NCBI RefSeq assembly: GCF_947501385.1 | Contig: NZ_CANMVP010000005.1 | Coordinates: 1-64,000 of the forward strand | Source: an uncultured Polaribacter sp. | Lineage (GTDB): Bacteria; Bacteroidota; Bacteroidia; Flavobacteriales; Flavobacteriaceae | Length of the DNA: 64,000 bases | Reading direction: 5' to 3' | Shown here: positions 26,944 to 43,925 of the stretch, piece after piece | Layout: the number at the start of each line of letters is the position of its first letter | How positions within the stretch are numbered: position 1 is the stretch's first letter | Notes under the pieces: generated by a model | Seen by the model: the letters and a program-made list of their open reading frames with translations, nothing else | Databases searched by the model: none | What the model was told of the DNA's origin: nothing | Translations under genes and position numbers: made by a program

Positions 26944-27402
26944 AGGTTGTCTGAAAAGTTTTAATTAACTTTTTGTCTCCTTGAGCGGAGTCGAAAGGTT
27001 GTTAAATATCAATAGCTTAAATAAGTTCTCGACTCCGCTACCATTGACGTACTTATATAACTATCTGATTTTACGTAAATTAATAGTTCTCGACTCCGCT
27101 CGAACAGACATACTTATAAGCATTTATCTCGCGTCATTCAATCGCTTGAAAATTTTTTTTCTCGAATCTACCATTGACGTCTTTTTTAAAACCCTGATAA
27201 TCATTATGTTGAAATTACTTTTAAACCAAGCTCTCGAGCCATTTTTTTGAAAATCATACTCGAACACAGGTATAAAAACACTATTATGATAACGATTATT
27301 TTGCAATTCAGTATATTTACACGCTAATTTACGTCATTCCAATCGCTTGATAAAAATTTTTCTCGGGTCTCGAACGGACATGAATTACTTTTCATACAAC
27401 CT
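26944..27402. mobile_element. mosaic nonautonomous repeat element bounded by imperfect inverted repeats
   Basis: AGGTTGTCTGAAAAGT (26944-26959) versus reverse complement of 27387-27402 AGGTTGTATGAAAAGT; internal modules shared with the 41-kb element. Confidence 0.5.
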
Positions 27403-38430: not shown

Positions 38431-40896
38431 TTAAAACAAACTTGCTCTAAATACAAATCCGTTTTCTTTTACGCCACCATACCGTGCGCTTACATATTCT
38501 ACACGTAAAAAACGCCATTTGCCAAAACCTAAATTTGCCAAACCAACAGCATATTCTGTATACGGATTCTTGTCTGCCATAAACATTGCCTTTCCTCCAG
38601 CAACAAGGTGGAAGTTCAACTTATTAATCAACGGAATTTTACCTAATACAAAACCTCTGAAATTGTGTTCTACATGCATTTCTGCATACTTATCATTTGT
38701 ATAATACTTATAATACTCTAACAAATTAAAACTGTTTAATGCTCTATCGATTGGAAATAATAACTGGTTTCCATTGGCTTGTAAATTGTCCATAAATGCA
38801 ATATCTTTTTTCTTTACGAAAGCACCTGCACGCAAATGATAAGAGAATTTACCATAATTACCAGCATTTAGATCTTGCCTAACATTTGCAATAAAAACAT
38901 CTGAGTTTAAAGCGGAATTTTCCGCACCAAATCTTTTTATATAATTCAAACTTAGTGTTGGATACTTGTCATTACCTTCATTTTCTTTTCTATCTGGGTA
39001 TGTCAAATATTTTTGCCCGAAAACAAAAGTCGCTCCTACATTTAAAGTGGCAATATTGTGTTCTGTAAAGGCGCCGTTTGTAAAATCTGTAGGATCTAAA
39101 GGATTGTTAGAGGTATAACCATTAGTACTTTGTTTGGCAAAAGAATAATCTGTGGTATTAAAAAGCGGTGTTCTTTTTGCGTATTCTAAAGAGGATGCAA
39201 AATAAAATCCATTTCGAATTTCTTCAGAATAACGAACTCTTGCAAACGTTTTTTCATAGATTTTCATATAGTTGTCTCTATAAAATAAAGAGGTTATCGT
39301 GTTATTCAACTTAAAAATAGGATCTCTTCCATTAAATTGTCGCGTTACAATTCCCCCAGAAATATTCAACCTAGGTCTTGTAAAATTATTCCATTTTTTT
39401 GCAAAGAAAAAAGTAGGTCTTAAGCGTTTATCAGAAAAACCATAATTAGCATTTATGCCTGCGTTCCACCATTTTCCTTCTTCATTTATTTCTTCAAAAT
39501 AACTAAAACCAGCAGAAGTATTTACGCCTTGTACGGTATTAAAACCTGTTCTAAGTAAAGGTCCATTATAAGAAAAAGATTTATTTTTATAAGAATTTCT
39601 GTGTGTATAGCCTGTTAAAGGATCTAACCAACCAAATTTATTTCCTTTCTCGTCTAAAGAATCTAAATACTTTTTAGATTTTCTAATGACCTTTATACTG
39701 TCTTTAAATCTATAATCTGTAACTTCTTCTTTTGTTAAAGCTACGGGTCTTAATTTATTCCAAAAAACAGTGTCTTTTTTTGTGGCATTTTCTTCAAATG
39801 ATAAAACCTCATTTGTAAATGTATTTTCTACAAATTGTGGTTTAAAATTATAATCTGAAAATACGTAAGAGAATTTCCCGCTAGGTTTAAAACCAAAGAT
39901 AGAAATATCAAAATCGATGGCTTGCGTATTTAAAACCCAAGCATCTATACCCTCATAATAGTTGAAGCTCTGTTTTAATTTTAAGGTATTTACCATGGGT
40001 AAGTTTACTTGCGCTCCTGTTGTGGTAACATCTGCACCATATAAAGCCCAGTCGTCTTCAACAACATAAATAAAACCATCAAAAACACGGTCATTTTTTC
40101 GCTTCGGAATTAGCTTTATCTTATTGATAAGTTTGCCGTCTTTTTCATAAAATGTCCCTACCAGTTTATACTCATAATAACTAAATGCATTGGTAGAGAT
40201 TGGCGAAACCAAATCATTAAAAATTTCTATACTGTTTTCATAAAAATTAATATTGGATCTTTCTGCTCTGTTAAAACTAACCCCGTTGTCTTGTCCTGAT
40301 ACTTTAGAGGCTACAATTTTCTCCTTGAAATTTTCAGGTGTTTTTTGAAAGGAAATATCAGAAAATGTTTCAGACAGATAAATAATTCCAGTTCTGGTAG
40401 AATCTAAACCTCCACCAAAATCTCCCATCGTTTGGCCGAAAAACTTTTCTGGCGCATCTTTAATTCGTGTCAATCCTCTTGAATAAAATTTTGCGGTGTA
40501 ATTCGAGTATTTGTCTGTATTTTTATCTTTATTCGCAATTACATTTCTAATAATTCTGTTTGCAGGATTGTCTTTTGTTGAAATAATAATTTCTTCTAGT
40601 TGAATATTTTCTTCTTCTAAAACAACATTCAACTCAAAAGGAAATGAAGTAATAGCTACTTCCTTTTTTACCGTTGTAAAACCTATAAATTGAAAAACGA
40701 TGGTATATTTTCCTGTTTTTTTTAGGTTCAAAACATAATCTCCGTTATCATTTGTGGTGGTTCCTTTAATTGTTTTATTTAAATAAACACTTACAAAAGA
40801 AAGTGGTGCTCCTTTTTTATCGGTAACAGTTCCTTTAATTTGTGCATTTATAGCGAATGCGGTAAAAAATAAAAGAAAGAATGTAAACTTTTTCAT
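38431..40896 (-). CDS. DUF5686 / carboxypeptidase-like regulatory domain outer membrane protein
   Basis: Signal peptide, IKGTVTDKKGAPLSFVSVYLNKTIKGTTTNDNGDYVLNL CarboxypepD_reg-like domain, long beta-barrel-like C-terminus. Confidence 0.88.
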   Translation of the reverse strand: MKKFTFFLLFFTAFAINAQIKGTVTDKKGAPLSFVSVYLNKTIKGTTTNDNGDYVLNLKKTGKYTIVFQFIGFTTVKKEVAITSFPFELNVVLEEENIQLEEIIISTKDNPANRIIRNVIANKDKNTDKYSNYTAKFYSRGLTRIKDAPEKFFGQTMGDFGGGLDSTRTGIIYLSETFSDISFQKTPENFKEKIVASKVSGQDNGVSFNRAERSNINFYENSIEIFNDLVSPISTNAFSYYEYKLVGTFYEKDGKLINKIKLIPKRKNDRVFDGFIYVVEDDWALYGADVTTTGAQVNLPMVNTLKLKQSFNYYEGIDAWVLNTQAIDFDISIFGFKPSGKFSYVFSDYNFKPQFVENTFTNEVLSFEENATKKDTVFWNKLRPVALTKEEVTDYRFKDSIKVIRKSKKYLDSLDEKGNKFGWLDPLTGYTHRNSYKNKSFSYNGPLLRTGFNTVQGVNTSAGFSYFEEINEEGKWWNAGINANYGFSDKRLRPTFFFAKKWNNFTRPRLNISGGIVTRQFNGRDPIFKLNNTITSLFYRDNYMKIYEKTFARVRYSEEIRNGFYFASSLEYAKRTPLFNTTDYSFAKQSTNGYTSNNPLDPTDFTNGAFTEHNIATLNVGATFVFGQKYLTYPDRKENEGNDKYPTLSLNYIKRFGAENSALNSDVFIANVRQDLNAGNYGKFSYHLRAGAFVKKKDIAFMDNLQANGNQLLFPIDRALNSFNLLEYYKYYTNDKYAEMHVEHNFRGFVLGKIPLINKLNFHLVAGGKAMFMADKNPYTEYAVGLANLGFGKWRFLRVEYVSARYGGVKENGFVFRASLF

Positions 40897-41055
40897 AGGT
40901 TGGTTTTGTTAGTAGACGCAAACATAAAGTTTCTGTTACAATCAAATGTTTAAAAATTGTTAAACCAAACATAATGACTTCTTATTTTTTAAACCATTTC
41001 AAAAGCAATAACATTCTTCAACTTAAACAAAAAAGTCATTTTTAACTTACATATA

Positions 41056-41487
41056 ACCCGTTGTGCATTTTGAGTTAAATGTATTCCAAAATGTCAGTTC
41101 GAGACCCGAGAAAAATTTTTATCAAGCGGTTGGAATGACGTAATGTCTCCTCGAGCGCAGTCGAGAGGTTAAAGAAGGTCTCGACTGCGCTCGACCAGAT
41201 ATATATTAATAATTTGTAAAACAGTAACTTACAAGCTACGTCAATGGTAGTGATTTTTTGATAAAAAAATCGTATCGAGAACTAGTTTAGAAACGAAAAT
41301 TCTTATTCTCGATACAAATTTCACTTAATTCAATCGTGAAATTCACTACCATTGACGTGTTTATATAATTATCTGATTTCAAGTAGATTAATAGTTCTCG
41401 ACTGCGCTCGAACAGACATATTTATAGACTAATTTACGTTATTATAATCGCTCGAATTGACAGAATTTATCAAAATGCACAACGGGT
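41056..41487. mobile_element. MITE-like nonautonomous element, 18-bp perfect TIRs and 9-bp target site duplication
   Basis: ACCCGTTGTGCATTTTGA / TCAAAATGCACAACGGGT ends; TTACATATA at 41047-41055 and 41488-41496. Confidence 0.85.
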
Positions 41488-41642
41488 TTACATATAATAA
41501 AACCATATCGTTAAATTTCAATCGTAAAAAGACCTCAATTTTCAATTTGATAAAGAAATATCCAATTCTTAAAAGAATAGAAAATTCGTTTTCTCTCTGA
41601 TTGAAAACCATATATTTGTAGGTTCTAACAAACCATTAAATT

Positions 41643-43925
41643 ATGAGCGATTCTAGAAAAAGACACGAAGCTTTACTATATCACGCAAAACCAAAACCAG
41701 GAAAAATTGAAGTAGTTCCTACTAAAAAATACGCCACTCAGCACGATTTAACTTTGGCCTATTCTCCTGGCGTTGCAGAACCTTGTTTAGAAATAGCAAA
41801 AGACAAAAACAATGTCTACAAATATACCGCTAAAGGAAATTTAGTTGCAGTAATTACAAACGGAACAGCTGTTTTAGGTTTGGGAGACATTGGTCCTGAA
41901 GCCTCTAAACCTGTGATGGAAGGTAAAGGTTTGCTTTTTAAAATCTTTGCCGATATAGACGTTTTCGATATTGAAGTAGACGCAACAGATGTAGAATTAT
42001 TTATACAAACAGTAAAGGCAATTGCACCCACTTTTGGTGGCATCAACCTAGAAGATATTAAGGCTCCTGAAGCTTTTGAAATAGAACGAAGGTTAAAAGA
42101 AGAGCTAGACATTCCTGTAATGCATGACGATCAGCACGGAACTGCAATTATCTCTGCAGCAGCGCTAAAAAATGCGATAGATATTTCTGGAAAAGACTTT
42201 TCTAAAGTACAAATCGTTGTAAACGGAGCAGGAGCCGCAGCAATTTCTTGTACCCGTTTGTATTTAAAATTAGGTGCAAAAAGAGAAAATGTGGTGATGT
42301 GTGATAGCAAAGGTGTTATCAGAAAAGATAGAGACAACCTTACTTCACAAAAAGCAGAATTTGCTACAGACAGAGATTTAGAAACTTTAGAAGAAGCAAT
42401 GCAAAATGCAGATGTTTTTATTGGATTGTCTACAGGGAATGTAGTAACACCAAAGATGCTTTTGGCGATGGGGAAAAATCCGATTGTTTTTGCAATGGCA
42501 AATCCAGAACCAGAAATTGAATATGACATCGCCGTTGCCACAAGAGATGATATTATTATGGCCACGGGTAGATCAGATCACCCTAATCAAGTAAATAATG
42601 TACTTGGTTTTCCATTTATTTTTAGAGGCGCTTTAGATGTTAGAGCTACCAAAATTAATGAAGAAATGAAACTTGCAGCAGTGCATGCTTTGGCAGATTT
42701 AGCAAAAAAATCGGTTCCTGAGCAAGTAAATATTGTCTATGATGAGGTAAGTTTAACCTATGGAAAAGAGTACATCATTCCAAAACCATTTGATCCAAGA
42801 TTAATTTATGAAATCCCTCCAGCAGTTGCCAAAGCTGCTATAGATTCTGGCGTCGCTTTAGAACCCATAACAGATTGGGATAAGTATAGGGAAGAATTAA
42901 TGGAGCGTTCTGGTTCTGGAAGTAAAGAAATTAGATTGCTACACAACCGAGCAAAAAGCAATCCAAAACGCGTTGTTTTTGCGGAAGCAGATCATTTAGA
43001 TGTTCTAAAAGCCGCACAAAGAGTATATGAAGAAAAGCTATGTAAGGTTATTTTATTAGGAAGAAAAGAAGTCATTTTAGCATTAAAAGAAGAAATTGGT
43101 TTTACAGCAGATGTGCCAATTATAGATCCAAAAACTGACGAAGAAAAAGAAAGAAGAAAACGTTTTGGTGAGGTGTATTGGAAAAATAGACAACGCAAAG
43201 GACGTACTTTCTCTGAAGCAAAAAAATTAATGCGAGAGCGTAATTACTTTGCAGCAATGATGGTGAATGAAGGAGAAGCAGATGCTTTAATTACAGGATA
43301 TTCTAGACCTTATCCAACAGTGGTGAAGCCGATGTTAGAGTTGATAGAAAAAGACAAAGATGTTTCAAGAATTGCAGCCTGTAATTTAATGTTGACCAAA
43401 CAAGGTCCTTTATTTTTAGCAGATACTACAATTAATGAAAATCCGTCAGCAAAAGATTTGGCAAAAATTGCCCAAATGACAGCTAACTTTGCAAGTATGT
43501 TTGGTATGAAACCAAATATTGCGATGTTGTCTTTTTCTAATTTTGGATCTTCCAATTCAGAAACTTCTAAAAAAATAAGAGAAGCGGTTGCGTATACCCA
43601 TCGTCATTTTCCAAACACAGTGATTGATGGAGAGTTGCAAGCAGATTTTGCGCTGAATCCAGAAATGCTAGCAAAAGAGTTTCCTTTTTCTAAATTGAAC
43701 GGAAAAAAAGTGAATGTTTTAATTTTTCCAAACTTAGAATCTGCAAACATTACCTACAAATTATTAAAGCAAGTTCAAGGAGCTGAATCTATTGGTCCTG
43801 TAATTTTAGGCTTTAACAAACCCGTACATATTTTACAATTGGGAGCAAGTGTAGATGAGATGGTAAATATGGCTGCATTGGCAGTAGTAGATGCACAACA
43901 AAAAGAAAAAAGGAATAAAAAGTAG
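41643..43925 (+). CDS. maeB: NADP-dependent malic enzyme fused to phosphotransacetylase-like domain
   Basis: [34 protein letters not shown]-terminal PTA-like domain. Confidence 0.95.

Follow-up and report, generated by a model that had tools for sequence, protein, structure and literature searches.

The 432-bp insert that lies inside a perfect 9-bp duplication in the window (the whole 64,000-nucleotide stretch of DNA that we analyzed) is a genuine MITE with IS982-family ends. We consider it very probable (about 93%) that this is a non-autonomous element, moved in trans by an ISRa1-type IS982 transposase, in which a 180-bp palindrome would have received guest repeats to become a composite that itself transposes. 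We observed directly the ends, the duplications, the copies, several loci at which composites carry different duplications, and an autonomous insertion sequence (IS) with the same end.

A gene-less element with many intergenic copies

The sequence at 41047-41496, as read off the window, agrees with an earlier sequence-only reading of this DNA, which had described exact 18-bp inverted repeats within a 9-bp direct repeat. The left terminal inverted repeat (TIR), ACCCGTTGTGCATTTTGA (41056..41073, plus strand), is an IS982-type end, and the right TIR (41470..41487, minus strand), which was assigned by inverted-repeat pairing and genome matches, is complementary to it at 18/18 positions, or over 19 with one flanking A included. 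The flank sequence on each side carries the target-site duplication TTACATATA, which has no assigned strand (left, 41047..41055; right, 41488..41496). Allowing up to three mismatches, the TIR occurs just twice in the window, where chance predicts 0.04 matches. Also borne out was the claimed position between a DUF5686 gene and maeB, which form a divergent pair: the DUF5686-like gene is read from the minus strand with its start codon at 40896, maeB is read from the plus strand with its start at 41643, and the element is 159 bp and 155 bp, respectively, away from these starts. The element has no coding capacity, as had been proposed; its only open reading frames (ORFs) are two spurious ones of 47-60 aa, overlapping the right edge.

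We searched the host assembly (4.67 Mb, 117 contigs) by DNA search and by a TIR pattern scan, which returned 32 forward and 32 reverse matches (64 in total) versus 2 and 1 (3 in total) for the reversed pattern used as a control. Exact flanking duplications, which span 6-10 bp and are usually 7 or 8 bp long, were present in 25 of the 27 complete TIR-bounded elements that we measured, and in one of the two exceptions (on contig C14) AAAGGTA stands on either side with its register shifted by one base. All 27 are intergenic (no ORF of ≥90 aa contains one); the flanking ORFs are tandem for 15 elements, convergent for 7, and divergent for 3. The search for further copies that had been suggested thus found many, in the host genome as well as in related genomes, and the loci gathered from the host and other genomes together hold 61 distinct elements with target-site duplications. 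The family therefore combines the hallmarks of a MITE, namely near-perfect TIRs, target duplications, short length, absence of coding capacity, multiple copies, and an autonomous element with the same ends.

A comparison with empty sites had also been suggested. The DUF5686-maeB order is retained, with no element, in four congeners (G013, G004, G041, and G042), and the syntenic stretch measures 424 bp in G013, 448 bp in G004, and 418 bp in G041, versus 420 bp for the joined focal flanks. While the gap is thus element-free in these relatives, its middle is too diverged to align and to display a single TTACATATA, which supports an insertion but not its exact junction; among all gathered loci, other copies included, there was no convincing base-exact empty site.

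IS982-family elements with the same ends

Public genomes scanned for the 18-mer TIR yielded at least 96 stretches, and nearly all of the matches listed belong to Flavobacteriales. Both in these genomes and in congeners of the host, TIR pairs ∼980 bp apart enclose IS982 genes. In Empedobacter falsenii (L214:636-1614), a 979-bp IS has a left end identical to the focal TIR (18/18), a 9-bp duplication, and a 292-aa ORF, and its transposase scores 257 bits with the IS982 model, for which the cut-off is 130. Further IS982 elements with such ends are present in Capnocytophaga bilenii (L180) and in congeners G049, G016, G013, and G042, some of them with broken genes, and the ends of Riemerella ISRa1 (979 bp) match as well, except for 1 and 2 mismatches. 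The proposed search for a transposase gene bounded by these 18-bp ends has therefore led to the IS982 family.

Members of the IS982 family are ∼1 kb long, with ends of the form AC(N)6T(N)5TT and duplications of 2-10 bp (PMC7335449). ACCCGTTGTGCATTTTGA broadly fits this end pattern, with an AC start and a T-rich inner part, and the 6-10-bp duplications of the MITE family fall within the expected range. Like the MITE, ISRa1 and its relatives in Empedobacter, Capnocytophaga, and the host congeners have terminal repeats and duplications of variable length (5-9 bp); unlike the MITE, they are ∼980 bp long and encode a 292-aa transposase. Moreover, a parent-derived interior was not found, as nothing beyond the TIR is common to the MITE and any IS982 element examined. 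The MITE is therefore not a simple internal deletion of an IS982 element, but is IS982-mobilizable by its ends.

The host assembly itself contains no intact IS982 gene: Pfam PF13612 gave no match, and the NCBIfam IS982 model matched only degenerate fragments on contig C31, where the product of the decayed gene shares 28% identity with the E. falsenii transposase. Because of this, movement by an IS982 transposase is something that we infer, with an IS982 element of the ISRa1 type as the almost certain mobilizer. The degenerate IS982-like fragments (C31:24177-25400, L100:1178-2401) have a decayed MITE copy ∼120 bp away, a proximity that is probably coincidental.

TIR pairs ∼1.4-1.5 kb apart in congener G056 (L306 and L307) were considered as a new autonomous partner and rejected, as they look like interrupted MITEs; the interrupting sequences are other ISs, by eye with ISL3-like and IS3-like transposases. 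Separately, an Empedobacter stercoris plasmid, pLPY03 (L292), carries the beta-lactamase gene blaRAA-1 with an IS982-family transposase gene ∼150 bp upstream of it.

Basic unit, guest repeats, and composites

The commonest form of the family in the host is 180-181 bp long. The focal copy consists of a 180-bp MITE whose inner stem has received 147 bp in its left arm and 105 bp in its right (180 + 147 + 105 = 432); the length of 432 bp given in the sequence-only reading is thus right for this copy, but the copy is a composite, and the basic element is 180 bp. From left to right, the parts inside the TIRs, delimited by fold and covariation unless stated otherwise, are (i) the left arm of the inner stem, GTCAGTTCGAG (41093..41103, plus strand); (ii) the left guest repeat of 147 bp, which ends in ...ACGTCAATGGTAG (41104..41250, plus strand; from copy comparison, with boundaries ambiguous by ∼2 bp); (iii) the MITE core (41251..41345, plus strand), made of hairpin 1, GATTTTTTgataAAAAAATC (41252-41271), hairpin 2, GTATCGAGAA...TTCTCGATAC (41272-41315), and hairpin 3, AAATTTCAC...GTGAAATT (41316-41343), all on the plus strand; (iv) the right guest repeat of 105 bp, also from copy comparison, whose minus strand reads ...ACGTCAATGGTAG and which sits at the corresponding, mirror-image position in the inner stem (41346..41450, minus strand); and (v) the right arm of the inner stem, CTCGAATTGAC (41451..41461, plus strand).

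The left guest is missing from the 180-bp MITEs, and the guests also stand alone elsewhere in the host genome. Among intermediate forms, one copy of 285 bp contains just the right guest, and copies of 351, 323, and 308 bp have inserts of the same kind in the left arm only. The guest end motif ACGTCAATGGTAGY occurs 60 times in the host genome, versus 3 times in the control. A second hairpin repeat in the window (27035-27180) has ACGTCAATGGTAG-like sequences at 27035-27050 and 27165-27180 and CTCGACTCCGCTCGA at 27089.

GTAG-tagged REP repeats are moved by RAYT transposases (PMC3733652). The guests resemble them in being palindromic and in their ...GTAG ends, and the host genome has six matches to Y1_Tnp (PF01797). 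However, the guests measure 105-147 bp, whereas typical REPs measure 20-40 bp, and no RAYT gene flanked by guest repeats was found in the host genome; we therefore treat the likeness as a lead and not as membership.

At least three composites are present: the focal one on contig C5 (duplication TTACATATA), one on C15 (ATTAAA), and one bridging C6 and C29 (GAATTAG). The last is split over the right ends of its two contigs, both flanked by GAATTAG, with its middle absent from the assembly; since these ends carry halves of one composite with a common duplication, the two contigs are probably adjacent in the genome. As each composite has a duplication of its own, the composite itself appears to have moved, and we favor its transposition as a unit over the less likely independent assembly from nearly identical parts. 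The nearest sibling, that on C15, differs from the focal copy by five substitutions and one indel over 431 bp, which tempers the earlier suggestion of a recent insertion; the intact TIRs and duplication support recency only weakly.

A conserved fold

When the 180-bp form is folded as DNA, the TIRs pair into a stem, which is followed by an inner stem and by three hairpins (z −10.8). The focal copy (z −12.2) keeps the tip of this structure, with the two guests predicted to pair largely with each other. For covariation, we imposed the structure of the host copy on a set (A2) of 21 sequences representing many genera; 94.1% of cells pair, and 13 pairs show double changes (versus 6.0 in shuffled and 1-7 in slid controls), mostly in hairpins 1 and 3. 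These figures are to be read with the structure coming from one member sequence, the sequences being related, and the orientation of the Chryseobacterium rows having been chosen by hand to match hairpin sizes. Further, template switching in palindromes also restores complementarity, and covariation is therefore no proof of function. Our favored guess is that the structure may be maintained at the DNA level. The family is ordinary in kind and mechanism, with a fold that is unusually well conserved.

Spread of the family and alternative explanations

The 180-bp form is found across Flavobacteriales, and a ∼181-bp TIR-bounded version recurs among genera; the same element is present in Polaribacter sp. 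WD7 and in congener G045 (L113 and L154). No match to the TIR turned up in the viral contigs searched, and none to the MITE in the phages and plasmids searched. In addition, congeners contain the core without TIRs, as single copies and in tandem arrays. The arrays of G018 have a period of ∼144 bp and no intact IS982 ends (L294:1388-2347 and L295:1327-2765), and that of G069 has a period of 176 bp, with degenerate TIR remnants between its units (L297:1305-2154). An array unit folds in the same way as the MITE core (z −6.5).

These TIR-less copies raise the possibility that the fundamental unit is the hairpin core, as structured DNA or RNA that amplifies itself by slippage, recombination, or a single-strand transposase and was merely captured between IS982 ends. 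The covariation between genera, the single cores and tandem arrays of both periods in congeners, and the lack of homology between the core and IS982 all speak for this reading, which we nevertheless consider a minority possibility: nearly all host copies of the core lie within TIR-bounded elements with duplications, it is the ∼181-bp TIR-bounded form that recurs across genera, and the TIR remnants in some arrays suggest that the TIR-less form derives from MITEs. A broader proposal, in which the core would be a selfish or functional structured element under selection across Flavobacteriales, spreading both as IS982-type MITEs and as TIR-less arrays and serving as a landing platform for GTAG-ended guests, seems to us doubtful.

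It is improbable that the element is instead a transcript-level signal (a terminator, an RNase target, or a regulatory RNA) under selection at its sites. The strong fold of both the 180-bp and focal forms and the intergenic position of 27/27 copies would suit such a role, and transcripts of known bacterial MITEs do fold and influence adjacent genes (PMC3733652, PMC10969869). However, Rfam searches at gathering and permissive thresholds returned nothing credible, the sites are not conserved between relatives, and the focal element lies ∼155 bp upstream of both divergent genes. Moreover, there are barely more G-T pairs (29) than A-C mismatches (22), and counts this similar do not favor a strand-specific RNA.

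Target duplications of 9 bp fit the IS1, IS4/IS10, IS256, and IS5/IS903 types. The 9-bp duplication, taken earlier as a clue to the transposase, is indeed present and on its own fits a mover from one of these families, but such a mover is very improbable, because duplication length varies from 6 to 10 bp in the family, which makes 9 bp nondiagnostic, and because the exact ends sit on IS982-family elements.

Proposed mechanism

Returning to movement in trans by an ISRa1-type transposase, we propose that the IS982 transposase would bind the ACCCGTTGTGCATTTTGA ends, cut, and insert the element into AT-rich intergenic DNA, where a staggered target cut would yield a duplication of 6-10 bp (9 bp at the focal site). 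The basic element is a palindrome of 180 bp that can adopt a stem carrying three hairpins. In the host lineage, two other palindromic repeats would have entered the inner stem, one in each arm, and so produced the 432-bp composite, which may then have transposed more than once.

Significance and comparison with known systems

A widespread flavobacterial repeat is now tied to one transposase family, that of ISRa1-type IS982 elements. In this family, repeats nest within repeats and then travel as a unit, and its members provide a genus-spanning sequence set for asking why a MITE core keeps a covarying fold. Overall, the interest is moderate and lies in the conserved fold, the nesting, and the TIR-less arrays, with the structured core worth following up. 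The literature that we searched, with most subscription papers outside its reach, holds no description of this hairpin family, and the widespread 180-bp repeat appears to be previously undescribed in flavobacteria.

Among known systems, MITECca01 of Cardinium, an IS982-derived MITE from the same phylum, is likewise gene-less, has IS982 ends, and exists in many, mostly intergenic copies (PMC9769881). It is, however, ∼240 bp long, is confined to one strain, and keeps the subterminal sequence of its parent IS (PMC9769881), whereas the flavobacterial family occurs in many genera, has no parental subterminal sequence, and possesses a conserved multi-hairpin core. By their descriptions, bcr1, ERIC, NEMIS, RUP, and QMITE2 are similarly small, intergenic, and palindromic, with strong predicted structure (PMC3733652, PMC10969869), while differing from the flavobacterial family in their hosts and in their ends.
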